DNA of 64,000 bases from Nemania diffusa (taxonomy: Eukaryota > Ascomycota > Sordariomycetes > Xylariales > Xylariaceae): assembly GCA_038501195.1 (NCBI GenBank), contig JBBPUQ010000013.1, forward strand, positions 143,235 through 207,234. The letters are read 5' to 3'. Made by a program: the position numbers and the translations under genes. The notes under the pieces were generated by a model. The model ran no database searches and was not told where the DNA came from. It was given only the letters and a program-made list of their open reading frames with translations. The number at the start of each line of letters is the position of its first letter. Positions within the stretch are counted from its first letter, which is position 1. Shown piece after piece: positions 15,040 to 43,332 of the stretch.

Positions 15040-15043
15040 ACAG

Positions 15044-15110
15044 AAGTTGTAATTAATGAAAAAGGTTAGAATTTTAAGCTAACAATATGAGTTCAGTCTC
15101 ATCAACTTTT
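15044..15110 (+). repeat. tRNA-like leader element L1, start of cassette I
   Basis: First of five related elements with ends AAGTTG.../CAACTTT that pair as an acceptor stem and a T-arm-like ATGAGTTC...CTCAT. The anticodon-like stem GTTAG/CTAAC closes a nine-base loop, so it is not a standard tRNA. After it comes a conserved leader (AAGTAAATAACTTA, then TTTCGTACTATTTTTTATTA) that runs to the ATG of ORF A. Related elements: 35402, 38086, 38634, 39862. Confidence 0.7.
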
Positions 15111-15170
15111 TAAGTAAATAACTTAATCTTTAAGTTATTTCGTACTATTTTTTATTATAATAATTTTAAT

Positions 15171-15527
15171 ATGTTTAATGTCTTACAAAGAGAAGATTTT
15201 ATTTTGGTCAGAGAGGATTGCTATTTTATAAATTTAAATTTATTTATTGGGGCTGAAGATTTTAATATTAGTTTATTAGAATTTTTAGGTGAGCATTGTA
15301 GAGCTAAAAAAAGATACGATGCATACAGTGAATGTGATGTATATTTATTGGAGTTTAACGATATTCTACCATCTGATCTAGATTCAGATGTTATTAATGA
15401 ATACCGTATAAGTGTACCTTTTTTATACCCGTTTATTGATAAATTATTGTCTTTTAATCATATCTTTCTTTTGTATCTATATGTATACAAAAGAAATTGT
15501 ATTTATTTATGTATTAAAAAAATATAA
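15171..15527 (+). CDS. Cassette ORF A, copy 1 (unknown, 118 aa)
   Basis: I do not recognise this protein. It starts at an ATG right after the conserved leader. The sequence shares a core with two other copies at 35560 and 39998: GAEDFNISLLEFLGEHC, YLLEFNDIL, PFLYPF(I/V)D and SFNHI. It is acidic in the middle with a hydrophobic, Tyr-rich end (LYVYKRNCIYLCIKKI) and no clear signal peptide. Copies 1 and 3 differ by substitutions and codon-length gaps while both stay open, which points to selection on the protein or to recent copying. Confidence 0.65.
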   Translation: MFNVLQREDFILVREDCYFINLNLFIGAEDFNISLLEFLGEHCRAKKRYDAYSECDVYLLEFNDILPSDLDSDVINEYRISVPFLYPFIDKLLSFNHIFLLYLYVYKRNCIYLCIKKI

Positions 15528-15639
15528 TTTAATGTTAAGGAATATACTAATATTTAGCAATAACATGCCAAATTGTTAGAAAATAATGTTTCATTTTTTA
15601 AATTAGGAAATAACGTTCCATTTTATTTAATAAAAAAAA

Positions 15640-16813
15640 ATGTTTATGATTGATAAATTTATTAGTATTTTTACTGTCTTTGTATCCAAGGGGGGGGGGG
15701 AATCTTTAACAAGCGTAATCTTGTTAAATTTTTAACTATTTTTATGGTTGGTTTTATTTCCAGAATTTTGGTTAATCATTATTTTGATCTTAATGTTTTT
15801 GCCGATTGTTTTAGCTTTATTTCTATTACTTATTACTTTTGAATGGCTACCTTTGTTGTTTTAGTTAATCATTTGGTTGAAGTTTTTGACTTCTCTCAAT
15901 TTGTAGGTTTTTTATCCTTTGAGCCTATTAAACTTTTTATCGCAATGTGAGGACAGTTCACTCATCATTTAACTAAATTTTTATCTAATTTATGAAAACC
16001 TACTTTATTTCAAACTGGTTACTGGAGAGGAGGTAAGAGGGTTGAAACTATTAAATTTAGTATGGATATTAATTCTCAAACTGGTTCAGGTTCTTTTAAG
16101 GAGGTTGAATCTAATAGAGATGAAGGATTATTTAGAACTAATAGTGATAATAGTTTTAATACACCTAGTACTATGACTTCACTTTTTCAATCACAAAATC
16201 ATTTACCTCAGCGAAGCAGTAATTTACCTGAACAAGAATGAGCTATTTGAGCCCAAGTAGGCCCAGCCGTGGATAGTCAAACTGAAACTCGCAATTAATT
16301 AAGAAGTTCTAATTTACAATATCTTCCTCGTAACTCGAATGATTCAAGTGTTTATAGTAATTTTACTAATGGTACAACTCATTCAACTATAGGAACTCGT
16401 CCTGATTATTCACAACAAAATTTAAGAGATTATGAAGAATTTACGAGAAATATAGAAAATAGACGGATTTTTCGTCAATCTGCTATTTGCAGTCGATCTA
16501 GTCAGGCAAATCGTTTTTATGTTAGTACAGACAATTTAAAATTTACGGATAAAATAAGAAATGGTTTTAAAACCCACAGGGTTCACGCAGAAAAAAAAAG
16601 ATGAATATTAATATAGAAAAGGAGTGAATCAGAAATAGAGCAGAAGAGAAACATTACATAAGATTAGAGTAAATAAAAGGACATAAGTCTGCTGTAAAGA
16701 ATGATTTATCTAGGTTTTTTAGCTTAAATGGAAAGAGTTACGTAGAAGTAGGTGGCTGAAGAAAAGGTGGGAGAGATGTAGTTCGTTATTATGAATCTAA
16801 AAAGTATAGATAA
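15640..16813 (+). pseudogene. Cassette ORF B, copy 1, degenerate
   Basis: Counterpart of the membrane protein at 40474. The N-terminus is broken by a ten-base G run near 15690. The readable part has FADCFSFISITYYFWMATFV and WGQFTHHLTKFLSNLW, then an Asn/Ser/Gln-rich tail (NNSFNTPSTMTSLFQSQN-like) and PEQEWAIWAQVGPAVDSQTE. A TAA replaces a Gln codon after ETRN (about 16297) and further shifts follow. The tail phrase LSRFFSLNGKSYVE and the ending WRKGGRDVVRYYESKK(Y) are still recognisable. Confidence 0.7.
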
Positions 16814-16987
16814 GAGGACGTAAGTCTGCTGTACAACTTAGACACAAGGAAAAATAGATTTATCTTAGGGATTTTGGATATAGATGAAAATGAACTAGGT
16901 ATTTTTGCCTTAGATACATATATTTAGGAAGATAAAGATACAGCCCAATCTAACCTAGGGGCATTTTATTTAAAGAATTAGTAAGTT

Positions 16988-17540
16988 ATGTATTATATAA
17001 ATAAGTATTTAGCTATGAGCTTTGCAGCAAAAAGATTAAATAAAGATTATATTATCTTTATTTATAGTTACACTGTTACAATGCTTTTATTTATTCTTGT
17101 TGCGTACCCTGAGCAGTGTTTGCTTTTTTTTTTCTAGCTGACAATCAGAAGGAGCGGGAGAATTACAATTTTCGCATCTTAATCAGGACATTAATAATTA
17201 TATGTTAAATATTTGCATAAATAATTTTAATATCCTTAGTTTACCTAGTGATAATTTATATATCCGATTTGTCAAATTTTTAATTAATACTGAAACAGGT
17301 TACACTGTACCTAAAGGTAACAACTATTCCTTAATAAACTCCGGTTACGGTTGTTACAATGTTGAAAATAAGGATATTGAAGTTCAATCGACTATTTTAA
17401 AAGTATTGGACTTAAAGTTAAAAATACAGGAAGAATGCATATTAAAATTAGAAAATAACTATAAATTAAAATTAGTAGAATATGATATAGAGCTAGTTAA
17501 ATGATTAATAAGTATAAAAGAAATATTACAACGTAGTTAA
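16988..17540 (+). pseudogene. Cassette ORF C, copy 1, broken
   Basis: Counterpart of the ORF at 41819. It starts MYYINKYLAMSFAAKRLNKD and has a membrane segment, then a TAG near 17137 in a T run. The rest is open from 17202: LNICINNFNILSLPSDNLYI, IRFVKFLINTETGYTVPKGN and a charged helical end LDLKLKIQEECILKLENNYK, to TAA 17538-17540. Confidence 0.65.
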
Positions 17541-17667
17541 GTAACAATACAGAGGGAATATTGAAAAATATTAGGCAGGGAGGGTACAGATAAACATAGA
17601 GAATAATCGTCTCATTTTTTTTAATAACACAAATACAAATACATGAAAAATAATCAAATAATTTTAA

Positions 17668-18205
17668 ATATGCTACTTAAACCGCCGTGTAAGCAATACT
17701 CCCAGAACTGCTGTAATTAACGAACTTGAAAGAGAAATAATGCATACACCTTCTCTTAGAGAAGATGTGTATGATATTAATGAATTTACATTTTCTATTG
17801 GCCCTACGGATACGCTCTTAGTATCCACAGTAAATAAAAGCGCACTTATGACTAAGCATAATAAACCCATAAACGCTATAGGAAAAATGATGGTATTTAG
17901 TAGCATCGAATTCTTTAAATTAGGTGAATTATATCTTAATCTAAGACATTTAGGATTTACTTCTACTGTAGTTTTGTCTATAAATCTATGGGAAGATTTA
18001 AAAGAAGAAGTCTTTCAAATAAAAGAAGGAATTTCAGTTACTTACGTTGAAATGGGTATTCACTATTTTATAAAAATGTTGAATGAAAATCCCGCGCGTT
18101 TTTTTATTTTAAATAAGAAAACTTTATATATTTTTAGAGATAGTACTTATTCAGATATAAGTACTATATTAAGTTCTATAGGGTCGGAAGGTTTAAACCT
18201 AGTTA
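17668..18205 (+). pseudogene. Cassette ORF D, copy 1, 5' part (interrupted)
   Basis: Unknown protein: NRRVSNTPRTAVINELEREI, NEFTFSIGPTDTLLVSTVNK, INAIGKMMVFSSIEFFKLGE, LKEEVFQIKEGISVTYVEMG, NPARFFILNKKTLYIFRDST and SSIGSEGLNLVR. No ATG fits the start; the frame opens after a TAA and may use another codon. At 18205 the similarity to the copy at 42520 stops and a trnV plus GIY-YIG segment begins; the missing 3' part resumes at about 19150. An antisense frame (17906-17673) is open here but contains a stop in the other copy, so I favour the + strand. Confidence 0.62.
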
Positions 18206-18209
18206 GGGA

Positions 18210-18280
18210 GCGACTGTCATTTAAAGGTAAGATTGCTGTCTTACACACAGAGTATATCGGTTCGAATCCGATCGGTTGTA
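18210..18280 (+). tRNA. trnV(tac): tRNA-Val (TAC), inside the disrupted ORF D
   Basis: Acceptor GCGACTG/CGGTTGT with several G-T pairs, D arm ATTT/AGAT, anticodon arm CTGT-CTTACAC-ACAG (TAC), T arm ATCGG-TTCGAAT-CCGAT. All arms form, so it is a good candidate for the working trnV, although it lies in an insertion. A second TAC gene at 20469 folds less well. Confidence 0.75.
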
Positions 18281-18283
18281 GAT

Positions 18284-18364
18284 GAGGAAATTATTCCATT
18301 TTATAATATAAGGAAATTACGTTCCATTTTATAATATAAGGAAATTACGTTCCATTTTATAATA
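18284..18364. repeat. Three tandem copies of a 27-28 bp repeat
   Basis: AAGGAAATTACGTTCCATTT with TATAAT between units, repeated three times (first unit slightly divergent), between trnV and the GIY-YIG gene. Related phrases (AGGAAATAACGTTTCATTTT) precede ORF B in cassettes I and V, so this may be a regulatory or recombination sequence of the family. Confidence 0.75.
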
Positions 18365-18379
18365 AATAAATAAAAATAA

Positions 18380-19141
18380 ATGTACAAGGCGATACCATTT
18401 AAATCTTATTTTAAAGTAAGTGAACTTAAAACTATTATCTTTAAAGATAATAAAAATAAAAGCGGAATTTATAGATGAATTAATAAAATTAATAATAAGA
18501 GTTATGTGGGGTCTTCTGTAAAATTCAACAGAAGATTCTCTAATTATTTTTGTATAAATGAAAAAAATATTCGAGGCTGCAGTTATATAAAGAACGCTAT
18601 ACTTAAATATAAATTATCTAATTTTAGTTTAGATATATTAGAATATTGTGAACCTAACCTTTTAATAAAAAGAGAACAGTATTATATTGATAGCTTGAAG
18701 CCTGAATACAATATATGTAAAATAGCAAACTCATCTTTAGGATACAAGCATTCTTATGAATCTAAATTAAAAATGAGTATTAATAGAACGGGTATTAAGA
18801 ATCATATGTATGGTAAACATCTTACAAATGAAACTAAACTCAAAATTAAAACGAGTGTTATTAAAACCTTAAAAGCTAAAGGATTTTTTTATAATTATAA
18901 ATTAGGAATTTATAATTATAAAAATAAGTTAATAAAGATATTAGACAGTGCTAAGCAAATGTCTAAAGCTTATGATATACCAGAAAGTACTTTAATTAGG
19001 TACATAAAAACAGGAAAATTATATAAAGATAAATATAATTTTCTAAAATATCCGTGAGCTTGAGCCTTAAGCGGTAAAATAAATTCAAAATTTTACCGTC
19101 AAGGACTTGTATTATTAAAATATAGTATATTAATTAAATAA
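18380..19141 (+). CDS. GIY-YIG homing endonuclease with NUMOD motifs, intact
   Basis: Open over 253 codons with TGA as Trp. The GIY-YIG domain has SGIYRWINKINNKSYVGSS (start of the nuclease fold), RFSNYF, ILKYKLSNFSLDILEYCEP and the catalytic-type phrase LIKREQYYIDSLKPEYNI. Next come NUMOD3-type GKHLTNETKLKI and a C-terminal NUMOD1-like helix-turn-helix (SAKQMSKAYDIPESTLIRYI). It is free-standing, not in an intron, and sits with trnV inside ORF D. Relatives are at 36518, 38235, 38772 and, in an rnl intron, 46190. The start is the ATG after AAATAAATAAATAAAAATAA. Confidence 0.85.
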
Positions 19142-19149
19142 AAAAAAAA

Positions 19150-19300
19150 AAGATCAAAAATCCCATGTAATGAGTACATTAGAATTAAGATTTTTTTTTT
19201 TCTATTTACTAGCTCTTAAGGGGGATAATTACAAATCTATTATGAAGTTAAATAGTTTTGATGTTTTACCTAAAAGTAGATATTTATCTACCTGTTAATA
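19150..19300 (+). pseudogene. Cassette ORF D, copy 1, 3' remnant
   Basis: ATGTAATGAGTACATTAGAA, TTTACTAGCTCTTAAGGGGG and ATTATGAAGTTAAATAGTTT match the end of the other ORF D (MSTLELRFFFYLLALKGDNY). It is displaced from the rest by the trnV and GIY-YIG insertion and is no longer in frame. Confidence 0.75.
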
Positions 19301-19374
19301 CGCAGTGAGTTTCTAGTAAATAAAATAAAATAAATAGTTTATTTTATTTTTAATAAATATATTAAATATTTATT

Positions 19375-19440
19375 AACAACCACAAGGCTATATTACTAGG
19401 TGTCCTTAGTAGTAAATCGGTTCAAATCCGAAAGGTTGTT
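19375..19440 (+). tRNA. tRNA-like element (AACAACC type), copy 2
   Basis: Acceptor-like AACAACC/GGTTGTT pairs perfectly. T arm ATCGG-TTCAAAT-CCGAA is standard. The central hairpin TACTA-GGTGTCCT-TAGTA has an eight-base loop and there is no D arm. It could be a D-armless tRNA (a TGT triplet lies in the loop) or a relic. Confidence 0.4.
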
Positions 19441-19480
19441 TAGGTTAAAACGAACCATTTAATATATACATTAATTAAAA

Positions 19481-20316
19481 ATGAATAAAAATGATATGGA
19501 ATTAAAATATTTAGAATTAGGTTCTTACTTGGCTGGTTTAATTGAAGGGGATGATAACATATGAACGCAAAAACACCTAAAAGGTAACGACGGTCGTATG
19601 AATAACCCTAAAATAATGTTTACTTTTCATATGAAATAAATAAATCTATATACGCACATTAAAGGTATTTTAGGTGGAGGGGGTTTTTATAAAATAAAAA
19701 CCACCAATGCTTTCAGATATACTATTTCTGATTTGTCCACTCTATTGAAATTAATTAATTTAGTGAACGGTAAGTTTCGTACTCCCAAAATAATATACTT
19801 ATATAAAGCTATTGACTATCTTAATTTAAAATACAATTTAAATATAAATAAATTACCTTTAGATAAAAGCAATATCAATTCTAATGCTTTACTAGCAGGA
19901 ATGACTGATAGTGAAGGGTGTTTTCACATAAGTGTAAGTAATACTAGTAAATTAAGAGTAATATGTAGTTATACACTTTCATAAAGAAAAATAGATAAGG
20001 CTTTGGATTTATCTTGTGTACCCTTTATGACTGAAATAGCTAATTATTTTGAATGTAACCTTCAATCTAAAAGAGGGAATTTAATAGCTTTAGTTGCACA
20101 AGCAAACAGTAAACATTATTTAGTGAAGTCTTATTTTGATAAGTTTCCTGTAATGAGTAGTAAATACCTTGAATACTTATGGTTTTTAAAAGGACTAAAT
20201 TATTTAAGTAAAAGATTAACTGAAAAAGAAATTCTATAAGTTAAAGCTATAATAAATTATATGAATACGCGTAGAACCTTTTTTAATTGAGATCACTTAA
20301 AAAGTTTTTACCTATA
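19481..20316 (+). pseudogene. LAGLIDADG endonuclease, free-standing, degenerate
   Basis: Related to the two cox3 intron-2 proteins: SYLAGLIEGDDN (first motif, degraded), LINLVNGKFRTPKI, ALLAGMTDSEGCFHISVSN (second motif), FDKFPVMSSKYLEYLWFLKG and the end MNTRRTFFNWDHLKSFYL. TAA codons fall at about 19637, 19982 and 20237. No intron core surrounds it; it lies between tRNA-like sequences downstream of cassette I. Confidence 0.82.
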
Positions 20317-20361
20317 AAAAAATATATTATTCATATTTATTTTTTTTTTCATAAAATAATA

Positions 20362-20436
20362 AAGAAATTAGCTCAATGGTAGAGCGGCGGCTGTTTAACA
20401 CACAGATTGTTGGGAGTTCGATTCTCTTATTTCTTA
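20362..20436 (+). tRNA. Val-type tRNA-like gene with anticodon AAC
   Basis: Acceptor AAGAAAT/ATTTCTT, D stem GCTC/GAGC, anticodon arm GCTGT-TTAACAC-ACAGA (AAC), T arm GGGAG-TTCGATT-CTCTT. There are extra bases between the D and anticodon arms. An AAC tRNA is unexpected in a fungal mitochondrion, where TAC normally reads all Val codons. A near-copy with a damaged acceptor is at 34150. Confidence 0.5.
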
Positions 20437-20468
20437 CATATAAGTTACTTTACTAATTTTATATTTCA

Positions 20469-20541
20469 TAGAGATTGCTCAATGGTAGAAGCAACCTGTT
20501 TTACACACGGAAGGTTAGGTGTTCAAGTCACCTATCTCTTA
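20469..20541 (+). tRNA. trnV(tac): tRNA-Val (TAC), slightly irregular
   Basis: The anticodon loop TTTACAC gives TAC, and the T arm AGGTG-TTCAAGT-CACCT is perfect. The acceptor pairs AGAGAT/ATCTCT. One base is missing before the D stem and one extra A lies in the D arm (GTAGAAGC). This is the position expected for trnV between nad6 and cox3, but the copy at 18210 folds better. Confidence 0.55.
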
Positions 20542-20604
20542 ATAAGAGTCATTTTATTTTTAAATTACATACTATGTATAATAAAAAATAACCCCTAATA
20601 AAAA

Positions 20605-20806
20605 ATGACTCAGATAGTGAGGAGTAGTTTTCAAAGTCATCCTTTTCATCTTGTATCCCCTTCACCTTGACCTATGTACACAAGTATAAGTTTGTTCAGC
20701 TTAGCCACAAGTGGGGCGTTATCTATGCATAGTTTTAGTGCTGGATATAATATATTTTATTTAGCTTTAGCTTTAGTAGTATTTTCTATGTCATTTTGAT
20801 TTCGTG
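20605..20806 (+). CDS. cox3: Cytochrome c oxidase subunit 3, exon 1
   Basis: Cox3 is a core membrane subunit of complex IV. Six exons (20605-20806, 23446-23462, 26001-26114, 27428-27734, 30975-31087, 31448-31504) join into 269 residues with TGA as Trp, the usual Cox3 length. Exon 1 starts MTQIVRSSFQSHPFHLVSPS PWP and ends ALVVFSMSFWFR plus the first base of the Asp codon. ATG 20605 is the first in frame and gives the conserved N-terminus. Confidence 0.94.
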
Positions 20807-23445: not shown

Positions 23446-23462
23446 ATATTATAACTGAGGGT
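23446..23462 (+). CDS. cox3: Cytochrome c oxidase subunit 3, exon 2 (17 nt)
   Basis: AT-ATT-ATA-ACT-GAG-GGT completes Asp and encodes IITEG, the conserved DIITEGT of Cox3. It lies between a group II intron ending AC and a group I intron, and ends in T as a group I 5' exon should. Confidence 0.88.
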
Positions 23463-33973: not shown

Positions 33974-33988
33974 CGGCGAGGTGCGGCA

Positions 33989-34023
33989 GCGAAGCATTAT
34001 AAAAAAGAACCAAATATATTTTT
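33989..34023. repeat. 35-nt inverted match to the repeat beside rns
   Basis: Exact reverse complement of 4843-4877 (GCGAAGCATTATAAAAAAG on). It joins a GC repeat half on its left and the repeat at 34026 on its right. Confidence 0.75.
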
Positions 34024-34025
34024 TA

Positions 34026-34106
34026 GGGAGGTCCCACAGGTTCCAGCCGCCTTAAAGGATAAAATTAATTAATATATTAATTAATTTTGCAGGCGGCCGG
34101 AACTAC
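34026..34106. repeat. GC-rich double-hairpin repeat, copy 2 (right part)
   Basis: GGTCCCACAGGTTCCAGCCG, CCTTAAAGGAT, the AT palindrome and GGCGGCCGGAAC. Its left part (GAGGTGCGGCAGC) is interrupted by the 35-nt inverted repeat at 33989. Confidence 0.78.
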
Positions 34107-34149
34107 GTTATTTTACATAAATAAGTTCTTAATGATTAGAAATATAATA

Positions 34150-34228
34150 GAGATTATTAGCTCAATGGTAGAGCGGCGGCTGTTTAACACACAGATTGTC
34201 GGGAGTTCAATTCTCTTATTTCTTACAT
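34150..34228 (+). pseudogene. Val-type tRNA-like copy with damaged acceptor
   Basis: Nearly identical to 20362-20436 from ATTAGCTCAATGGTAGAGC to TTATTTCTTA, but the 5' acceptor reads AGATT, so it cannot pair with ATTTCTT. The similarity to 20370 and on continues downstream for a further 35 bases, so this is a segmental duplication. Confidence 0.7.
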
Positions 34229-34258
34229 ATAAGTTACTTTACTAATTTTATATTTCAT

Positions 34259-34345
34259 AGAGATTAGCTCAATGGTAGAGCAACCCTTTAGGGATTATAT
34301 TACACTTGCAAAAAATTTATAGTGATGAGGGTTTACCCTCATCAC
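34259..34345 (+). pseudogene. trnV 5' fragment with hairpin, second copy
   Basis: AGAGATTAGCTCAATGGTAG AGCAACC, then TTTAGGGATTATATTACACT and a GATGAGGGTTTACCCTCATC hairpin. Same composite as 14940-15039, but here the hairpin has mixed sequence rather than G and C runs. Confidence 0.7.
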
Positions 34346-34416
34346 TGTACAATTCATTTTAGTTTTAAATTATATACTATGTATTAAGATAACATAAAAA
34401 TTTTGAAAATTTCTAC

Positions 34417-34899
34417 ATGGACATACTGGATTTCATAAACCTTTTAAATGACCTAGGCGCACAAACAAGAGAGTTTGAGCTTTCTTTAGATTTATTCTGC
34501 AATGATAGTAATTTATCTGATCATACTAAATTACTACAACTTCAGGGCATGCATAGCGAATTATGTGAGGGATTAAAGAATAGCTGAACTACTCCTATTA
34601 AACAACTAAGATTGCACGATACAGAAGAATTAAGAACCTCGCTTTATTACCATCAATTACATGACACAGTAGATGCTTATTACAATAGCCCTGAATTAGC
34701 CCGAGCTGAGACTTTACTTAAAAATATTAGAAATACCATTATTGATTATCATAAGAAAGGTATTACTAATGCTAATTCTTTTAGAATAAACAAGCAAGGT
34801 CAATCTATATTAAAAACACATTCTGAAGATTTTAAACACGCTTGAACAATATATAAATATAAATGAAATAATGTATATAGACTTAACAAGCCAATATAA
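34417..34899 (+). CDS. Unknown ORF, 160 aa
   Basis: I do not recognise this protein. It is open from ATG 34417 to TAA 34897-34899 with three TGA read as Trp (GLKNSWTTPIKQ, HAWTIYKYKWN). Sequence features: MDILDFINLLNDLGAQTREF, KLLQLQGMHSELCEGLKNSW, YHQLHDTVDAYYNSPELA, LLKNIRNTIIDYHKKGI. It is soluble-looking and mostly helical by composition, with no membrane segment. It resembles none of cassette ORFs A-D. It could be a captured gene or part of a mitochondrial plasmid; no evidence here decides. Confidence 0.6.
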
Positions 34900-35246
34900 A
34901 GTTATATTTTAGCGGAATTAGGCTTATATGCTTTTAGTTTATTCATACTTATATTAAATATGTATATTAGCTGCTGCTTGATATTCGCGGTGTATCCAGG
35001 TTAGCTGCTACTGAAGATCGCTTCCTCTTGCAGAATAAGGTTAGTTATTCCAGAATATAAGTCTCTTTGGACTTATATGTTAAATATATTAAAATAAATG
35101 AAGAATCTAAAAATAAAAGAGTGTACTACTAAAAAAGCTCCTGTCAGTAAAAGTATGTCTTAAATATTAGAGAATCAAACGTTTACTGGAATATATTTAA
35201 TATTTATTAAATATAACAAACCCTATTAAGATATATATTATCTTAA
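34900..35246. other. Spacer before trnS
   Basis: AT-rich with scattered GC-richer bits (ATATTCGCGGTGTATCC, CTGCTACTGAAGATCGC). No gene or tRNA found. It ends with an AAGATATATATTATCTT inverted repeat just before trnS. Confidence 0.5.
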
Positions 35247-35332
35247 AGAGAATTGAGTGAGCGGTTTATACTGATTGTCTTGATTACAATAATGGATTAT
35301 TTCCATCATGGGTTCGAATCCCATATTCTCTG
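35247..35332 (+). tRNA. trnS(tga): tRNA-Ser (TGA), copy 1
   Basis: Acceptor AGAGAAT/ATTCTCT perfect, anticodon loop CTTGATT (TGA), long variable arm ATGGATTATTTCCAT, T arm ATGGG-TTCGAAT-CCCAT. Left boundary of cassette II; a second copy lies on the other side. Confidence 0.9.
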
Positions 35333-35401
35333 CTATGTTTTATGTCTATTGGACTGCTTCGTAAGCATATAAAATTTTTAGTGGTATAAACTATAATGTA
35401 A

Positions 35402-35468
35402 AAGTTGTAATTAAAGGAAAAGGTTAGATTATAAGCTGACTATATGAGTTAGAGTCTCATCAACTTTT
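35402..35468 (+). repeat. tRNA-like leader element L2, start of cassette II
   Basis: AAGTTGT...CAACTTT ends, GGTTAGATTATAAGCTGAC hairpin, ATGAGTTAGAGTCTCAT. The leader after it diverges from the other four, but a TTGTACTCTTTTACAATAAA phrase still precedes the ATG of ORF A. Confidence 0.65.
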
Positions 35469-35559
35469 TTAGCGTGACGAGCTAAAATTAATGCTTGATT
35501 AAAAAGCGTATAATTTTTAGAGTAAGTTGTACTCTTTTACAATAAATTAATTTAAAATT

Positions 35560-35892
35560 ATGATAAAATTTTACCCATTTTTTAAGATATCCGAGTTTGG
35601 TTATGTTTTCAATTTAAACTCTTTTTCATGTGCTGGTGATTTTAATATTTATTTCTTAGAATTTTTAAGTGAGTTTTCCATAAATAGGTATAATGTTGAT
35701 AATATATGTAATATATATTTATTAGAATTTAGTGATATTATTTTTGAAGACCGCGTAGAGATACCTTTTATATATCCGTATGTAGATAAGTCATTATCAT
35801 TTAACCATATATATGAATTATACTATTTATCAAATAATTCTAATTTTATTTATTTATATCTAGATTGTATAAAACTTCCCGTTTGCCGTTAG
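35560..35892 (+). CDS. Cassette ORF A, copy 2 (unknown, 110 aa)
   Basis: Diverged relative of 15171 and 39998: FNLNSFSCAGDFNIYFLEFL against GAEDFNISLLEFL, IYLLEFSDIIFED, PFIYPYVDKSLSFNHIYELY. Open over its whole length despite low identity to the other copies, which suggests the protein was conserved. Function unknown. Confidence 0.62.
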   Translation: MIKFYPFFKISEFGYVFNLNSFSCAGDFNIYFLEFLSEFSINRYNVDNICNIYLLEFSDIIFEDRVEIPFIYPYVDKSLSFNHIYELYYLSNNSNFIYLYLDCIKLPVCR

Positions 35893-35998
35893 CTGTTTTT
35901 CACATGTTTGCAGGAAAACTTTATTTTAGAAATAGTTCGTTCATATTTCTTTATTAAGAAAATTTGTTTCTTTTTACATTATTAAAAAAAAATAAGAA

Positions 35999-36523
35999 AT
36001 GTTTAGGTTTAAAAAATTTTACAGGGTTTTTACTACCTGAGTGTCAAAGTGGGCCGCAGCGAAGCAGGGAGGAATCTTTAACAAGCGTAATCTTGTTAAG
36101 GTTTTAATTATTTTTATGGTTGGTTTTAGCTCTAGAATAATGGTTAACCATTATTTTGATCTTAATGTTTTTGCCGATTGTTTTAGCTTTATTTCTATTA
36201 CTTATTACTTTTGAATGGCCACCTTTGTTGTATCAGTTAACCGTTTGGTTGAAGTTTTTGACTTCTCTCAATTTGTAGATTTTTTATCCTTTGAGATTAT
36301 CAAACCTTTTATCGCTATATGGGGACAGTTCACTCATCATTTAACTAAATTTTTATCTAATTTATGAAAACCTCTTTTATTTCAACCTCATGATTATAAA
36401 GGAAAAGGTAAAGAAATTATGTCTGATTTTAGTGGGAGAAATGTTGTGATTATTAAATTCGGTAAGGATATTAACTCTCAAACTGGTTCAGGTTATTTTA
36501 ATTCTACACGTAACAGGGGTTAA
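35999..36523 (+). CDS. Cassette ORF B, copy 2, truncated (174 aa)
   Basis: MFRFKKFYRVFTTWVSKWAA, FNKRNLVKVLIIFMVGFSSR, FADCFSFISITYYFWMATFV, FDFSQFVDFLSFEIIKPFIA, WGQFTHHLTKFLSNLW. At least two membrane segments. The frame is intact but stops after NSTRNRG at TAA 36521-36523, where the sequence changes into a GIY-YIG gene. The Asn/Ser/Gln-rich tail of the full ORF B is missing. Confidence 0.62.
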
Positions 36524-37483
36524 ATCTTATTTTAATGTCGCGGCGCGGGAAATTAAAGCCCTTATTTTTAAAGAAAATAAAAATAAGAGTGGTATTTATA
36601 GATGAACTAACTTAATTAATAATAAGTACTACATAGGGTCAGCTACAAAATTAAACAAAAGATTATCTCACTATTATTGTATAAATTTAAAAAATATTAA
36701 ATATCGAAGTTTAATAAAGAACGCTATACTTAAATATAAAATTAATAACTTTAGCTTAGATATATTAGAGTATTGCAACAAAGATATCTTAAAAAAAGAG
36801 AGCAAGACTATATAGATACTTTGAAGCCTGAATATAATATTTTAAAAATAGCAGGCTCACGTTTAGGGCATAAGCTTTCTGAAGAAACTAAATTTAAACT
36901 AAGTAAAATTAAAATGGGTAGTAATCACCACCAGTATGGTAAGCCTCATTCTAAAGAAACCATCAAAAAGCTGGTTGAATTTTATAAATATAATAAAATG
37001 ACACTTAAAGCCAAAAATAGATTAGCTTTAACTTATAAAGGTGTCTTAGTTAAGATTTTCGATAATTCAAATAATCTAGTAAATAAATTTTCTACTATTA
37101 AAGAAACAGCCAAACATTCAGGGGTTAGTCTGAGGTTTTTATGTAAATATATAGATAAGGATCAAAAATTTAAAGGGTTTATTCTTAAATCTGAATTTAA
37201 AAGTAAAAACGATGGAGTAAGTTCACGTTTAGGTCATAAATTAACTAATAAGACTAAGCAATCTATAAGTAATGCTTTAAAAAATCGGTTAAAAAAATTG
37301 TTACCTATAAAAGTTACTAATGTAGAAACAAATAGCAGTAGCTATTTTGCAAATAATTTAGAAGCCTCTAAATATTTAGAAGTAAGTGTATCTACACTAA
37401 TAAGATATAAAAGTAAAAAGAAAATGCTTAATCAAAAATATTTAATTAGCAATAATATAAGTAATAATAAGAGTTATAAATAA
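36518..37483 (+). pseudogene. GIY-YIG endonuclease in cassette II, frameshifted
   Basis: Joined directly to ORF B. SGIYRWTNLINNKYYIGSAT, ILKYKINNFSLDILEYC, then a shift in a seven-base A run near 36795 before KKREQDYIDTLKPEYNI. NUMOD3-type GKPHSKETIKKL and GHKLTNKTKQSIS, and NUMOD1-like ATIKE-type helices follow, to TAA 37481-37483. Only one lesion is seen. Confidence 0.78.
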
Positions 37484-37523
37484 TATTTAAATAAATAATA
37501 TGTTTATTTATATTATCTTTGTA

Positions 37524-37613
37524 TTAAAGAGAATTGTGTGAGTGGCCTATACAGACTGTCTTGAGTATAGTTATGGATAATCTCCATCATGGGTTCGAAT
37601 CCCATATTCTCTG
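37524..37613 (+). tRNA. trnS(tga): tRNA-Ser (TGA), copy 2
   Basis: Acceptor AGAGAAT/ATTCTCT, anticodon loop CTTGAGT (TGA), variable arm, T arm ATGGG-TTCGAAT-CCCAT identical to copy 1. Right boundary of cassette II. The anticodon stem pairs less well than in copy 1, so copy 1 may be the working gene. Confidence 0.85.
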
Positions 37614-37622
37614 TAATGTTTA

Positions 37623-37732
37623 ATCCCAGTGGGTGCGGCATGCGAAGCTGCCGCGGGGTCCCACAGGTTCCAGCCGCCTTAAAGGATAAAATTAATTAAT
37701 ATATTAATTAATTTTGCAGGCGGCCGGAACTA
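37623..37732. repeat. GC-rich double-hairpin repeat, copy 3 (complete)
   Basis: Nearly identical to 7202-7311, including CCAGTGGGTGCGGCATGCGA, GGTTCCAGCCGCCTTAAAGG, the AT palindrome and GGCGGCCGGAAC. It lies between trnS and trnR. Confidence 0.82.
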
Positions 37733-37757
37733 TATTTTTTTAATTAAATATAGTAAA

Positions 37758-37828
37758 TTCTCATTAGCTCAAAGGTAGAGCAAAATACTTCTAATATTTT
37801 GATTTTAGTTCGAATCTAAAATGAGAAT
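37758..37828 (+). tRNA. trnR(tct): tRNA-Arg (TCT)
   Basis: Acceptor TTCTCAT/ATGAGAA perfect, D stem GCTC/GAGC, anticodon arm AAATA-CTTCTAA-TATTT (TCT), T loop TTCGAAT. Confidence 0.92.
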
Positions 37829-38085
37829 CTTTACATTGATAAAATCCAAGTATTTTGTGCTGTATACTGCAAAAAAGTTCCTACTACGTAGCGTGCCTTA
37901 ATTAATAAAAAAAAAATAAATAATATATTATATAATAGATTTATCGTTTATCCTTCGATTAATTGGAAAACGGATTAGGCCCGGTAGGTTTGGCGCTGTA
38001 ATAGGATACAGACTAATTACGATAGTAAAAAAGAAGCGACCTTAATCGTCTACTATGTTGATGTGATATAAACTATATATATGCA

Positions 38086-38164
38086 AAAGTTGTATTAAGT
38101 GTAAATGGTTAGAGTTTTAAGCTTACAACATGAGCAAGGATCTCATATCCTCTCATCAACTTTT
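38086..38164 (+). repeat. tRNA-like leader element L3, start of cassette III
   Basis: AAAAGTTG...CAACTTTT ends, GGTTAGAGTTTTAAGCTTAC arm, a longer T-arm-like region than in the others. Followed by the shared leader (GGTAAATAACTTAGTATAG, TTAATTCGTACTATTTTTTG) up to the ATG at 38235. Confidence 0.68.
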
Positions 38165-38234
38165 AGGGTAAATAACTTAGTATAGTTTTAGGTTAATTCG
38201 TACTATTTTTTGTACTTTTAATAGTAATTTAAAT

Positions 38235-38582
38235 ATGATTAAAAATATAAAAGACGTAACACCTTTTAAATCTTAATTTAAAGCAAGTGAACTTAAAGCT
38301 ATTATCTTTAAATAAAATAAAAATAAAAGCGGAATTTATAGATGAACTAACTTAATTAATAATAAGAGTTATATAGGGTCTTCTGTAAAATTAAACAAAA
38401 GATTAGATTTTTACTATTCTTTAAATGTATATAGAATTACTTACCGAAGTTTTATAAAGAACGCTATACTTAAATATAAATTGTCTAAAGCTTATGATAT
38501 ACCAGAAAGTACTTTAATTAGGTACATAAAAACAGGAAAATTATATAAAGATAAATATAATTTTCGTAAAAACAGACCATAG
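38235..38582 (+). pseudogene. GIY-YIG endonuclease in cassette III, internally deleted
   Basis: Reads MIKNIKDVTPFKS, a TAA, then SELKAIIFK, another TAA, SGIYRWTNLINNKSYIGSSV and AILKYKLS, where it jumps straight to the C-terminal SKAYDIPESTLIRYIKTGKL. About 400-450 bases are missing compared with 18380 and 38772. The join lies at a shared TCTAA, suggesting a deletion by short-homology recombination. Confidence 0.8.
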
Positions 38583-38631
38583 TTTAATAGAAAAATACAT
38601 TGTTTGGGGCAACGTGATCCGAGTGCAAGTT
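38573..38631 (+). pseudogene. trnP (TGG) truncated at 3' end, between cassettes III and IV
   Basis: CAGACCATAGTTTAATAGAA matches the start of trnP at 43262. The anticodon loop TTTGGGG carries TGG, and CCGAGTGCAAG begins the T arm; then the acceptor 3' strand is missing and leader element L4 begins. Its start overlaps the stop of cassette III. Confidence 0.75.
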
Positions 38632-38633
38632 AA

Positions 38634-38711
38634 AAAAGTTGTAATTTAATAGGGAAAATGGATGGAATCTAGTGATTCTAGTTTATATGAGTTCAAACCT
38701 CATCAACTTTT
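38634..38711 (+). repeat. tRNA-like leader element L4, start of cassette IV
   Basis: AAAGTTG/CAACTTT acceptor-like stem, D-like arm ATTT-AATAGGGA-AAAT, a GAATC/GATTC arm with a four-base loop, T arm ATGAG-TTCAAAC-CTCAT. The best-folded of the five, but the middle arm cannot be a normal anticodon arm. Then the shared leader with GGTAATTCGTACTATTTTTG to the ATG. Confidence 0.72.
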
Positions 38712-38771
38712 AAGTAAATTATCTGGTATCTAGGTAATTCGTACTATTTTTGTACTTTATAATAAAAAAAA

Positions 38772-39752
38772 ATGTTTAAAAATATAAATAGCATAATACC
38801 TGTTAGATCTTATCTTAAAGTAAGTGAACTTAAAGTTATTATCTCAAAAGAAAATAAAAATAAATCTGGAATTTATAGATGAACTAACTTAATTAATAAT
38901 AAGAGTTATATAGGATCTTCTGTGAGATTAAACAGAAGATTTTCTCAATATTATTATTTAAATAAAATAATATTTAAAGATAGTAGTGTCATAGTGAACG
39001 CTATGCTAAAATATAGTTTATGTAATTTTAGTTTAGATATACTGGAATATTGTGAACCTGTCTTTTTATTAAAAAGAGAGCAATACTATCTAGATACTTT
39101 GAAGCCTGAATATAATATTTTAAAAATTGCGGGTTCATCACTGGGTTATAAACATAGAGAAGAAACTATAATAAAATTGAAAGAAATAGCTAAAAAAATA
39201 AATCGTACAGGTCTCAATAACCATATGTATGGTAAGCATCATTCGGAAGAATCTAAGCTTGAAATTAGTGCCAGTCTTAAAAAAACCTATAGAGTTGAAG
39301 GCCTTAATCGTTATCGATTAGGTAAGCAATTGTCAATAGAAACTCGAAAAAAAATATCAGAATCTTTAAAAAATAGTGGGTATAAAATGACACTTGAAAA
39401 TAAGAGAAGAATATCTTTAGTAAATTCGGGTTTTATCATAAAAGTTTATAGTAATTCAAATAAAATTTATGAGTTTCCTAGTATTAGAAAAACTGCAAGT
39501 CATTTTAAGGTTAGCACAAGTTTTTTACGATCTTATTTATATAATAATAAAGATTACAAAGGTTTTACTTTTACCTTTGAAATTAAAAATAATAGAGCAG
39601 GTATTTATGACTATAAAAATAAGTTAATTAAGGTATTTGACAACCCTCTACAAATATCAAAAGCTTACGATATACCTAAAACTACTTTATATAGATACAT
39701 GAAAACAGGTAAATTATATAAAAAGAAATATTATTTCCGTAAAATAGATTAA
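38772..39752 (+). CDS. GIY-YIG homing endonuclease with NUMOD motifs, cassette IV, intact (326 aa)
   Basis: Nuclease domain: SGIYRWTNLINNKSYIGSSV, MLKYSLCNFSLDILEYCEP, LKREQYYLDTLKPEYNI. Three NUMOD3-type repeats follow (GYKHREETIIKL, GKHHSEESKLEIS, GKQLSIETRKKIS), then two NUMOD1-like helix-turn-helix units (SIRKTASHFKVSTSFLRSYL and NPLQISKAYDIPKTTLYRYM). Open from ATG 38772 to TAA 39750-39752. It is free-standing, led by L4, and followed by a truncated trnP. This is the longest and cleanest member of the family here. Confidence 0.87.
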
Positions 39753-39757
39753 TTATT

Positions 39758-39818
39758 ATACGGACCATAATTTTATAGTAGAGTTCTTTGGAGGAAAGGT
39801 GTTCTGTTTCGCAGTGAG
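39758..39818 (+). pseudogene. trnP-like (TGG) remnant between cassettes IV and V
   Basis: CGGACCATAATTTTATAGTA matches the trnP start with changes. The loop TTTGGAG holds TGG, followed by a T-arm-like GTTCTGTTTCGCAGT. The 3' acceptor strand is missing. It starts five bases after the stop of the cassette IV gene. Confidence 0.62.
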
Positions 39819-39861
39819 TAAAAAATAATTAGTGATATAAAGTAATGTTTATCACTTAAAA

Positions 39862-39938
39862 AAAGTTGTAATTTAATAGAAAAAATGAACAGAATTTATA
39901 GATTCTAGTTTATATGAGTTTAAGCCTCATCAACTTTT
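39862..39938 (+). repeat. tRNA-like leader element L5, start of cassette V
   Basis: Close to L4: AAAGTTG/CAACTTT, ATTTAATAGAAAAAATG, AGAAT-TTATAG-ATTCT arm, ATGAGTTTAAGCCTCAT. The leader AAGTAAATTACTTAGTATTT, GGTAATTCGTACTATTTTTT runs to the ATG of ORF A. Confidence 0.72.
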
Positions 39939-39997
39939 TAAGTAAATTACTTAGTATTTAGGTAATTCGTACTATTTTTTATTATAATAATTTAAAT

Positions 39998-40351
39998 ATG
40001 TTGAATTTTTTAGAAGCAAACAATTTTATTTGGGTTAGAAGGGATTGCTGTTTTATAAATTTAGATTTATTTTTAGGGGCTGAAGATTTTAATATTAGTT
40101 TATTAGAATTTTTAGGTGAGCACTGTAAAGCAAAGAAAATAAGGGGTAGTGAATGTGATATATATTTATTAGAGTTTAATGATATTCTATTATCAGATGA
40201 AGATCTTACAGACATTTTTAAGGATGATCGTATAATTATACCTTTTTTATATCCATATGTAGATAATGCATTATCTTTTAATCATATATTTGAATTGTAT
40301 TTATATGTGTATAATATAAATTGTATTTATTTATGTATTAAAAAAATATAA
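39998..40351 (+). CDS. Cassette ORF A, copy 3 (unknown, 117 aa)
   Basis: MLNFLEANNFIWVRRDCCFI, GAEDFNISLLEFLGEHCKAK, CDIYLLEFNDILLSDEDL, PFLYPYVDNALSFNHIFELY, NINCIYLCIKKI. Very close to copy 1, with differences spread along the protein. It is the first gene of the most complete A-B-C-D set. Function unknown. Confidence 0.67.
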   Translation: MLNFLEANNFIWVRRDCCFINLDLFLGAEDFNISLLEFLGEHCKAKKIRGSECDIYLLEFNDILLSDEDLTDIFKDDRIIIPFLYPYVDNALSFNHIFELYLYVYNINCIYLCIKKI

Positions 40352-40473
40352 TTTAATGTTAAGGAATATACAAATATTAAGCAATAACGTGCCCCGAATT
40401 GTTTGAAAATAATGTTTCATTTTTTAAATTAGGAAATAACGTTTCATTTTATTTAATAAAAAAAAAAGAAAAA

Positions 40474-41677
40474 ATGTTTATGTTTAAAAAATTTTATAGG
40501 GTTTTTACTATCTTAATCTTAAAGTGGGTTGCATCGAAGCAGGGGAGAATCTTTAACAAGCGTAATCTTGTTAAGGTTTTAACTATTTTTATGGTTGGTT
40601 TTAGCTCTAGAATAATGGTTAACCATTATTTTGATCTTAATGTTTTTGCCGATTGTTTTAGCTTTATTTCTATTACTTATTACTTTTGAATGGCTACCTT
40701 TGTTGTTTTAGTTAATCATTTGGTTGAAGTTTTTGACTTCTCTCAATTTGTAGATTTTTTATCTTTTGATCTTATTAAACCTTTTATCGTAACGTGAGGA
40801 CAGTTCACTCATCATTTAAATAATTTTTTATTGCCTGCAATCTCCAAATGAATTGATTATTGATGAAAACCTACTTTATTTCAACCTGGTTACTGGAGAG
40901 GAGGTAAGAGGGTTGAAACTATTAAATTTAGTATGGATATTAATTCTCAAACTGGTTCAGGTTATTTTAATTCTACACGTAACAGTGCTGGTGTTCCATC
41001 CCATAATTTTTACGAGGTTGAATCTAATAGAGGTAATAGAGATTGAGTGCTATATGATACTAAAAGTAGCAATAGTTTTAATACACCTAGTACTATGACT
41101 CCACTTTTTCAATCACAAAATAATTTACCTCAGCAAAGCAGTAATTTACCTGAACAAGAATGAGCTATTTGAGCCCAAGTAGGCCCAGCCGTGGATAGTC
41201 AAACTGAAACTCGCAATCAATTAAGAAGTTCTAATTTACAATGTATTCCTCGTAATTCGAGGGATTCAAGTGTTTATAGCTATTACTAATGATACAACTC
41301 ATTCAACTAAAGAAATGAGCCGCCCTTATTCAGAAGGTACTTTGAGAGAGCATCAATTTAAATTGTCTAATTTAGATTATGTAAATAATCAACAACAGAT
41401 TATTCATAAAAAAATTCGTGAACTAGATATGTGCAGTCATTCTAGTCAGGCTAATCGTTTTTCTGTAAGTAGAGAGGATTTAAAAGATAAAGTAATAAAT
41501 AGAGCAAAAGAGAAATATAGCAAAATACATGAAGAAATAAGAGGACATAAGTCTGCTATAAATAATGATTTATCTAGGTTTTTTAGCTTAAATGGAAAGA
41601 GCTACGTAGAAGGAGGTGGCTGAAGAAAAGGTGGGAGAGATGTAGTTCGTTATTATGAATCTAAAGAGTATAAGTAA
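40474..41677 (+). CDS. Cassette ORF B, copy 3 (unknown membrane protein, one frameshift)
   Basis: Not recognised. N-terminal MFMFKKFYRVFTILILKWVA, then two or three membrane segments (VLTIFMVGFSSRIMV; FISITYYFWMATFVVLVNHL), a juxtamembrane WGQFTHHLNNFLLPAISKW, and a long hydrophilic tail rich in Asn, Ser and Gln (NSFNTPSTMTPLFQSQNNLP, PEQEWAIWAQVGPAVDSQTE). The first frame ends at TAA 41287-41289; comparison with copy 1 shows a two-base loss there, after which the protein continues DTTHSTKEMSRPYS to LSRFFSLNGKSYVEGGGWRK and ends at 41675-41677. TGA is Trp at eight or more places. About 400 residues if joined. Confidence 0.62.
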
Positions 41678-41818
41678 GAGGACGTGAATCTGCTGTACAA
41701 CTTAGATATCGGATTAATAGAGTTTTCATATAGCTGGAGATAGGTTAGTCTAGCCTTAAGGTTTTTATAAATCTAAAATTGTAATTCGAGATATTTTTTG
41801 TTTAATAATTAGTATACC

Positions 41819-42355
41819 ATGTTTTATATAGATAAGTATTTAGCTACCTTCATGAAAATATTTAATAAAGATAATTTAATCCATTATACTGTGATAATTT
41901 ATTGTTATATTGTTGCAGTGTTTTTATTTATTTTATGTTTGTATTTTTTTTTTTACATCTATGAACCTTCGGTAGAATTACAATTTTCGCACTATTATTT
42001 AGATACCAGTGTTTATAAGTTAAATCTTTGTATAAATAATTTCGATTATATTAGTTCACCTAGCGATAATTGGTATATCCGATTTGCCAATTTTTTAATT
42101 AATAGCGAGAGAGTTTACACGGTACCTAGAGATAATTATTTATTCTTAAATAATTATAATAACCACTTGTATACTTTCCCTGTCGCGAATAATAGGATTT
42201 CAGATCCATCGACTACTTTAAATCTATTAGATTTAAGGTTAAAATTAGAGGAAGAATGTAAATTAAGATTAAAAAGGGACTATCAAATGGAGTTAAAAGA
42301 ATATAGATTATCTCTTGTTAAGTACATAGAAGAAGGTTTAAAAGAGATATGTTAA
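41819..42355 (+). CDS. Cassette ORF C, copy 3 (unknown, 178 aa, one membrane segment)
   Basis: An N-terminal single membrane segment (VIIYCYIVAVFLFILCLYFF), a middle part YKLNLCINNFDYISSPSDNW, IRFANFLINSERVYTVPRDN, and a charged, probably coiled-coil end LDLRLKLEEECKLRLKRDYQ. Intact from ATG 41819 to TAA 42353-42355. The copy at 16988 is broken by a stop. Function unknown; the layout suggests a membrane-anchored protein with a helical tail. Confidence 0.65.
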   Translation: MFYIDKYLATFMKIFNKDNLIHYTVIIYCYIVAVFLFILCLYFFFYIYEPSVELQFSHYYLDTSVYKLNLCINNFDYISSPSDNWYIRFANFLINSERVYTVPRDNYLFLNNYNNHLYTFPVANNRISDPSTTLNLLDLRLKLEEECKLRLKRDYQMELKEYRLSLVKYIEEGLKEIC

Positions 42356-42519
42356 TACTGATAAGTAATAGATATAGAGGTAATATATTTATAGATATTT
42401 ATATCGCAAAGCGGTGGAGGGAGGGTAAAGATAATATAGAGAATTACGTCTCATTTTTTTTTTTAATTACATAAATACAAATACATGAAAAATAACAAAA
42501 GAAATTTAAATTTAATACT

Positions 42520-43209
42520 TAAACCGCCGAATCAATAATATTCCTAGGACTGCTTTAATTAATGGACTTGAAAGAGAGATAGTTTATAAACCATCTTTTA
42601 GAAAAGATGTATATAATATTAATGAATTTACATTTTCTATTGGCCCTACGGATACGCTCTTAGTAACCGCAGTAAATAAAAGCGCATTTATGACTAAGCT
42701 GAATGAACCTATAAACGCTATAGGGAAAATGATGGTATTTAGTAGCATCGAATTCTTTAAATTAGATGAATTATATCTTAATAATAATACATTTAGGATT
42801 TACTTCAACTGTAGTTTTGTCTATAAATCTACGGGAAGATTTAAAAGAAGAAGTCTTTCAAATAAAAGAAGGAATTTCAGTTACTTACGTTGAAATGGGT
42901 ATTCACTATTTTATAAAAATGTTGAATGAAAATCCCGCGCGTTTTTTTATTTTAAATAAGAAAACTTTATATATATTTAGAGATAGTACTTATTCAGATA
43001 TAAGTACTATATTAAGTTCTATAGGGTCGGAAGGTTTAAACCTAGTAAGAGGATCTAATCAAAAGTCTCATGTAATGAGTACATTAGAATTAAGATTTTT
43101 TTTCTATTTACTAGCTCTTAAGGGGGATAATTACAAATCTATTATGAAGTTAAATAGTTTTGATGTTTTACCTAAATTAAGATATTTACCATCCTATAGA
43201 ATTAAGTAA
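42520..43209 (+). CDS. Cassette ORF D, copy 3 (unknown, one frameshift)
   Basis: NRRINNIPRTALINGLEREI, NEFTFSIGPTDTLLVTAVNK, INAIGKMMVFSSIEFFKLDE, then a one-base insertion near 42790 compared with copy 1, after which HLGFTSTVVLSINLREDLKE runs open to SNQKSHVMSTLELRFFFYLL and FDVLPKLRYLPSYRIK, TAA 43207-43209. No clear ATG start in either copy. The end of this gene is what the trnV-GIY-YIG insertion disrupts in cassette I. Function unknown. Confidence 0.6.
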
Positions 43210-43261
43210 ATTCGGCAAATAATTTAAAGTATAAAAATTTATTTAATTAATTTTTATATAA

Positions 43262-43332
43262 CAGACCATAGTTTAACAGTAAAATTCGTTGTTAGGGGCA
43301 GCGGGTTCCGAGTGCAAATCTCGGTGGTCTGA
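43262..43332 (+). tRNA. trnP(agg): tRNA-Pro with anticodon AGG
   Basis: Acceptor CAGACCA/TGGTCTG perfect, anticodon arm CGTTG-TTAGGGG-CAGCG giving AGG, T arm CCGAG-TGCAAAT-CTCGG. Fungal mitochondrial tRNA-Pro normally has TGG, which is what the truncated neighbours carry. The place, just before rnl, is the usual one. Whether this or another copy elsewhere supplies proline is unknown. Confidence 0.8.

Follow-up and report, generated by a model that had tools for sequence, protein, structure and literature searches.

tRNA-like 5' elements head a family of accessory cassettes beside disturbed tRNA genes in the mitochondrial DNA of Nemania diffusa

Transfer RNA (tRNA) genes and sequences that resemble them are linked to several described genetic systems. 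The account of plant mitochondrial t-elements includes uncharged tRNA-like RNAs that undergo cleavage by RNase P and RNase Z and have divergent D and anticodon parts (PMC11658184). Mobile open reading frames (ORFs) of Glomus and Allomyces are described as duplicating the 3' end of a gene (PMC3630166). SegB, a free-standing GIY-YIG enzyme, is reported to cut inside tRNA genes, and its motif RAWTSGAAC to be present at 23 of 83 sites (PMC13096335). Each of the three covers one part of the plan seen at the locus analysed here. It lies in a window of 64,000 nucleotides of Nemania diffusa mitochondrial DNA (mtDNA), namely positions 143235-207234 of contig JBBPUQ010000013.1 (C13; 207,234 bp) in assembly GCA_038501195.1 (55.6 Mb, 16 contigs), and consists of five cassettes, E1 to E5, each headed by a tRNA-like element, L. 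All coordinates are window positions on the forward strand unless a contig is named.

The cassettes are a genuine family, not a chance assembly; their 5' end is t-element-like, and they adjoin disturbed tRNA genes. The explanation proposed from their sequences is that an accessory-cassette family with a t-element-like L spread beside tRNA genes by GIY-YIG-driven repair, a combined history given marginally less than an even chance. Each cassette would begin with L, a decayed tRNA keeping mainly the acceptor and T-arm helix. RNase P and RNase Z would cut the transcript at L and at the next downstream tRNA or L, and these cuts would free the ORFs as messenger RNA (mRNA) beginning with a leader hairpin, with L acting like a plant mitochondrial t-element. 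The position of the cassettes beside tRNA genes is proposed to arise because GIY-YIG endonucleases, related to those encoded by the ORFs G4 and G1, would cut in or near the trnV, trnS and trnP genes of the nad6-rnl cluster. Repair from a cassette-bearing copy would import the cassette with a replacement tRNA and leave pieces of the old one, much as happens with mobile ORFs at the 3' ends of protein genes, a proposal covering both the direction and the mechanism of spread. Cassettes carrying ORFs A to D would have moved with help in trans or have been carried along. Taken alone, the role of L as an RNA-processing signal is the best-supported part and is considered probable; spread through GIY-YIG-driven repair at tRNA genes is plausible, with the balance about equal.

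The L elements occupy 15042-15112 (E1), 35400-35470 (E2), 38085-38166 (E3), 38634-38713 (E4) and 39861-39940 (E5). A covariance model built from these same five copies returns them at 74-88 bits (88.4 for E1), values that come by construction; across 225,234 bases it detected no sixth L, the next matches (30.4 and 20.2 bits) being tRNAs called by ARAGORN. On the Rfam tRNA model, L of E1, E2 and E4 reaches 36.1, 38.0 and 37.4 bits, the last being missed under default filters. These scores exceed both the cut-off of 29 bits and the 33.3 bits that the trnV(tac) at 20469 attains. L is decayed in its D and anticodon parts: the D arm is reduced, and the predicted fold of the E4 and E5 anticodon arm lacks a 7-nt loop. 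The acceptor and T-arm are conserved, with 25 of 26 columns invariant in the five-row alignment, whereas of the remaining gap-free columns 13 of 43 are (Fisher p 3.4e-8, which assumes independent columns and was calculated after the pattern was noticed). By its sequence, the part of L that is retained is the tRNA part recognised by RNase P and RNase Z.

The same arms are recovered by geometry. A scan that was designed once L was known, but that uses none of its letters, looks for a 5-bp T-stem followed immediately by a 7-bp acceptor; it finds the elements of E1, E2, E4 and E5 and not that of E3. When at least eight G/C are required in the arms, C13 yields 13 matches (eight tRNAs, four L and one other), compared with a mean of 1.3 and a maximum of 5 in 40 Markov shuffles; when no G/C limit is set the scan discriminates poorly, with 34 matches on the forward strand, 19 on the reverse and 5-15 per shuffle. 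The single other high-G/C match, at 9497-9574, corresponds to no known tRNA and to none of the L elements. Measured against t-elements, tRNA likeness is found in three of the five L by Rfam and four by geometry, and position at a gene end in all five. The exact L pattern has no match in IMG/VR or in a bacterial and archaeal genome set, collections that hold no fungal genomes by design, so that these absences carry little weight. In BLAST of the organism's own genome, neither L plus leader of E4 nor the initial 1.3 kb of E1 had matches outside C13 and C12, a contig carrying a second form of the mtDNA. A different, weaker tRNA-like element is present in two copies about 82% alike, at 14755-14822, just before a nad6 C-terminal copy, and at 19377-19443, just before a LAGLIDADG relic; neither is listed by Rfam at E<=5.

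Downstream of L, an ORF follows in all five cassettes, as the first-pass annotation had stated, at a distance of 58-91 nt. This first ORF is A in E1, E2 and E5 and a GIY-YIG ORF in E3 and E4, again as claimed, with the qualifications that many of the ORFs are broken and that one GIY-YIG gene, G1, is headed by a genuine trnV (18210) and not by L. The leader between L and the ORF is similar in four cassettes and has diverged in E2, which agrees with the annotation's statement that most cassettes have it. In the four similar copies (E1, E3, E4 and E5) its start folds as a 10-bp hairpin, located in E1 at 15116-15140 (core 15117-15139). All 40 of the 40 cells are paired, five of the ten pairs vary and one has changed on both sides, and partners slid by one to three columns pair at most 64%. 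Over 135 bp, L plus leader shows 87% similarity between E4 and E5, yet unrelated ORFs follow, so this segment behaves as an exchangeable 5' end.

Among the ten cassette pairs, compared without gaps, 9-18 of the first 20 bases of L are common, against 4-8 of the 20 bases to its left. This jump in similarity places L within the cassette unit, and it bears out the earlier treatment of L and cassette as one piece. Between E1 and E5, similarity extends from L through the end of D. The gap from the last ORF to the next tRNA or tRNA-like sequence measures 78 nt in E1, 44 in E2 (to S2), 0 in E3 (the stop codon lies inside P1), 8 in E4 (to P2) and 52 in E5 (to P0), where the element downstream of E1 (19377) is weak and P1 and P2 are truncated.

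The cassette bodies differ in their ORF sets. The full set A-B-C-D is present in E1 and E5. In E2, A precedes a truncated B that is joined in its middle to a GIY-YIG part, and E3 and E4 each have a GIY-YIG ORF. In E1, A (15171-15527) is followed by B (15696-16616, with an in-frame stop at 16296), a diverged C (17040-17540) and D (17668-19298), the last interrupted at about 18208-19150 by trnV and G1. G1 (18380-19141) is an open ORF of 253 amino acids with GIY-YIG and NUMOD3 domains in Pfam. E2 comprises A (35560-35892), truncated B (35999-36523) and a frameshifted GIY-YIG part fused into B (36510-37483). The GIY-YIG remnant of E3 (38235-38582) has two stops and an internal deletion, and its last stop codon falls within P1 (38573-38582). 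E4 carries G4 (38772-39752), an open GIY-YIG and NUMOD3 ORF of 326 amino acids (Pfam) that also matches I-TevI. E5 contains A (39998-40351), B (40474-41677, frame broken at about 41280), C (41819-42355) and D (42516-43209, frame broken at about 42780). Thus A is open in three copies, as are C of E5, G1 and G4; B of E1, B and D of E5, D of E1 and the GIY-YIG ORFs of E2 and E3 are broken. E2 and E3 look like recombinants. A short motif, GGAAATWACGTTYCATTTTAT, occurs ahead of ORF B (15600-15640 and 40420-40455) and in two copies ahead of G1 (18300-18360), and may be a signal for expression or cleavage that these ORFs have in common.

Between cassettes, the A proteins show 45-70% identity. The ratio of nonsynonymous to synonymous substitution rates (dN/dS) is 0.41 (E1/E5) and 0.64 (E5/E2) for A, 0.92, 0.35 and 0.54 for B, 0.49 for C, 0.35 for the start of D, 0.06 for its middle on five changes, and 0.35 and 0.40 for the GIY-YIG pairs. 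These values indicate that most cassette ORFs were under constraint, B of E1/E5 hardly. The middle of D (17947-18207 and 42790-43050) shows 99% protein identity between E1 and E5, compared with 81% at its start, which is a sign of recent gene conversion.

Domain searches place only the GIY-YIG ORFs in known families, PF01541 being above the Pfam cut-off in G4 and G1. The scanned A-D ORFs have no match above a curated cut-off in Pfam, PHROGs or NCBIfam, and no polymerase, reverse transcriptase or recombinase domain in those libraries; the lowest E-value, 0.0063, concerns part of B (NCBIfam, 14.8 bits against a cut-off of 458). No polymerase or reverse transcriptase domain was found by Pfam in the scanned GIY-YIG ORFs. 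Profile searches against solved structures with A, C and D (B not included) gave nothing credible, and AlphaFold models of A and D are poor, with a mean predicted local distance difference test score of 50 and 34. IMG/VR scans returned no relative of D or C from that fungus-free collection and four distant GIY-YIG loci for G4, and B had no match in the bacterial and archaeal set, likewise free of fungi by design. Within C13, relatives of G4 occur as GIY-YIG ORFs at more than ten other places. An intron origin of the cassettes was considered and dropped, as no intron model was found around E1-E5 at cut-off or at E<=5.

The neighbouring tRNA genes are disturbed in three different ways. Copies of one tRNA on both sides of every cassette had been claimed; this applies only to trnS around E2, the trnP and trnV arrangements not being clean. 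The two trnS(tga) genes, S1 (35247-35333) and S2 (37528-37613), are both intact and lie on either side of E2. The 12 differences among their 86 positions are confined to the D arm, the anticodon arm and the variable region, and 52 of 52 pair cells remain paired, two pairs through changes on both sides, a result that 130 of 500 shuffles equal, as a two-row comparison leads one to expect.

At the trnP locus the order is E3, P1, E4, P2, E5, P0, R1, R2, R3. P1 (38573-38629) is a 5' piece ending in the T-loop, with TGG in the anticodon loop by eye, and P2 (39761-39818) is a degenerate 5' piece ending near the T-loop. P0 (43262-43332), with anticodon AGG, is followed by the 3' remnants R1, R2 and R3 (43333-43485), of which R1 and R2 show TGG in the anticodon loop by eye. 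The upstream copies, given in the first-pass annotation simply as trnP copies, are both truncated, and P0 is the only full trnP reported by ARAGORN in C13 and in the scanned pieces of C12. From three nested insertions one would expect two 5' pieces and three 3' remnants, and the observed counts agree; the arrangement fits nested insertions with some misfit, and R1 and R2 could be a local tandem duplication.

The trnV locus of E1 is untidy. A trnV(tac) 5' piece at 14941-15010, recognised by alignment with 20469 and 34259, overlaps the end of the nad6 C-terminal copy and is followed by unrelated sequence and a G/C hairpin; a full copy with a weak cloverleaf lies at 20469-20541. The annotated trnV pieces around E1 are present, together with an additional intact trnV(tac) inside ORF D (18210-18280; 48.3 bits), which precedes the GIY-YIG gene within the cassette. 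The trnV(aac) is itself duplicated, at 20353-20496 and 34140-34285. Its second copy is followed by a trnV(tac) 5' piece and hairpin, which jointly score 24.6 bits as a tRNA, and these stand upstream of a 160-residue ORF (34417-34899) that has no family match.

Several observations weigh against the proposed explanation. L of E3 and E5 is not listed by the Rfam tRNA model at E<=5, and the invariance of the L arms could instead reflect gene conversion. Shuffled alignments match the paired percentage and covariation score of the leader hairpin in 34 of 500 cases, its double-change count in 421 and its pair-type count in 239, for which reason its support is graded moderate. Some bases to the left of L are common to E2 and E3, perhaps also E5 (gapped, by eye), so the cassette edge may sit up to about 25 nt further left. 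There is overlap between the trnP remnants and the 5' pieces, a feature not explained by simple cutting, and the dN/dS of 0.92 for B belongs to E1/E5. The Pfam scan recognises no known endonuclease domain in A-D of E1 and E5 or in the start of E2. As for a SegB-like target, the reverse complement of RAWTSGAAC resembles the T-loop in the authors' reading, and the motif is also no more than the common T-loop. Of the 14 forward matches in the window, ten fall in tRNAs, including the T-loops of S1, S2 and the trnV at 18210; the other four lie outside tRNAs, and the motif is absent from P0 and from the trnV(tac) at 20469, which argues against that exact target for E3-E5.

Part of this pattern could be produced by recombination only, in which unequal crossing-over and gene conversion among the repeats of a recombination-prone mtDNA multiplied the L-led units and the tRNA copies with no tRNA-targeting endonuclease involved, and L may still be a processing signal. 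This possibility, a serious one of lower probability, draws on the abundance of repeats in C13 (187 pairs of at least 70 bp listed), the duplicated trnV(aac) region at 20353/34140, the recombinant appearance of E2 and E3 and the deletions of C12 in E1; it accounts poorly for a left edge of similarity that sits at L beside different tRNAs, and for the trnP 5' pieces and 3' remnants that bracket cassettes. A single segmental duplication as the source of all cassettes, which the first-pass annotation had named as a result that would count against it, is unlikely and was dropped, since the flanks and the flanking tRNAs (V, S and P) differ and the A proteins have diverged as given above.

The nature of L is a separate question. 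Were it an inert pseudogene, an ancestral ORF would have inserted beside a tRNA that then decayed, and both would have been copied together. The decayed D and anticodon parts, the E3 and E5 scores below the tRNA model and the true trnV ahead of G1 are in keeping with such decay, but the almost unchanged acceptor and T-arm columns, the leader hairpin kept after L in four of five copies and the presence of L plus leader before unrelated ORFs make it distinctly improbable. Least probable of all, and by a wide measure doubtful, is that L serves as a DNA signal, for instance as terminus or origin of an element that is plasmid-like or driven by a recombinase, with incidental tRNA likeness: L is the left edge of the common sequence and its conserved arms are palindromic and free of double changes, yet four copies keep exact tRNA geometry, three score on the tRNA model, and the scanned ORFs A-D contain no polymerase or recombinase.

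The window as a whole is part of a large fungal mtDNA and reads under genetic code 4. It contains tRNAs Y, N, K, G, D, S, W, V, I, S, R, P and E, together with ribosomal RNA pieces, group I and group II introns, cox3 exons and many LAGLIDADG ORFs. A C-terminus in the window is presumably that of nad6; the Pfam match is weak and below cut-off. This nad6 C-terminal stretch is present in two copies (12394-12474 and 14854-14934), and a third piece of ten residues lies at about 13497-13526 (E 0.026), with a LAGLIDADG ORF (12886-13455) between the first and the third. The arrangement resembles the mobile-ORF pattern described in Glomus and Allomyces (PMC3630166). Between nad6 and rnl lie the tRNAs R, V, I, S and P, which correspond to the second tRNA cluster of Chrysoporthe, and the clustering is stated there to be shared with most Pezizomycotina (PMC4894602). 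A G/C-rich repeat of about 75-117 bp with an inverted repeat is scattered near tRNA genes in both orientations, with copies at 7204-7320, 34030-34126 and 37626-37754 and at C13 31638-31752 and 59041-59144.

C12 (220,760 bp) is 99.8-99.9% alike to C13 in the long stretches compared. It holds about 16.5 kb of mtDNA with ten further tRNAs (C12 152942-169417) missing from C13, so the contig of the window is not a complete mtDNA. In the fetched piece of C12, which excludes L of E2 and S1, E3, E4, G4, P0, P1, P2, the R remnants and S2 are identical to C13, and the L-leader stretch of E5 differs. C12 lacks 14939-16180, comprising the trnV piece, L of E1, ORF A and half of B, and also short stretches near 11687-11790 and 16464-16507. 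The empty site sought there was not found: the 1.24-kb loss is an imprecise deletion that also alters the end of the nad6 copy, and C12 was dropped as an empty-site strain. The C12 form may be a subgenomic variant or one that arose in assembly; should the assembly be correct, that molecule can dispense with part of E1.

If the proposed history of t-element-like heads and GIY-YIG-driven repair is true, the formation of mRNA ends in a t-element-like manner would be known from fungi as well, and tRNA genes would join the list of targets for mitochondrial mobile ORFs. Such a history would also help to account for the duplicated tRNAs and enlarged intergenic regions of fungal mtDNA. ORFs A-D are a conserved gene set whose relatives were not found outside this genome in the libraries searched, none of which is a collection of fungal sequences. 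A bolder version, rather unlikely, is a new mitochondrial mobile element with a built-in 5' t-element, which would use an endonuclease cut to home into tRNA genes and would supply a new tRNA in place of the old, and which in one case would have swapped the only full trnP for a copy with a changed anticodon (AGG, the older pieces having UGG). The possible replacement of an essential tRNA by a selfish element can thus be put to the test here.

Among known systems, mitochondrial plasmids of the dpo/rpo and retroplasmid types are set apart by their polymerase or reverse transcriptase gene, which was not seen in the scanned A-D and GIY-YIG ORFs. Intron endonucleases of the I-TevI type with GIY-YIG and NUMOD3 domains are closer, since G4 matches I-TevI chains (E 0.004); G4 and G1, in contrast to those intron-encoded enzymes, are headed by L or trnV within a tRNA cluster, and no intron model reached cut-off around them. 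Phage T4/T6 SegB shares with the cassettes a free-standing GIY-YIG gene among tRNA genes, whereas the cassettes are mitochondrial, their cutting is a proposal, the T-loop motif is absent in trnP, and the SegB accounts consulted in part describe no L element (PMC2988022, PMC13096335).

The mobile ORFs of Glomus and Allomyces (PMC3630166) resemble E3 and E4, where an endonuclease ORF lies beside a duplicated part of the host gene and a putative native remnant lies downstream. A GIY-YIG ORF is open in E4 and G1, broken in E3 and E2, and recognised in none of the A-D ORFs; a possible inserted copy with a native remnant is seen at trnP (P0 with R1-R3), both trnS copies are full, and trnV offers no clear case. 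The cassettes differ from the mobile ORFs as described in that source in that they would target tRNA genes and supply a whole tRNA, an L stands at the 5' end, and A-D cassettes carry no recognisable endonuclease (PMC3630166). Plant mitochondrial t-elements resemble L in being tRNA-like sequences at a gene end, there the 5' end, with a divergent D and anticodon region; L differs in being fungal and a repeated family within multi-copy cassettes, where cleavage would occur as proposed (PMC11658184). The first-pass annotation knew of no described element with this plan; in the open-licence literature, as far as its accessible parts extend, the whole plan was not found, and t-elements, mobile ORFs and SegB each cover one part of it.

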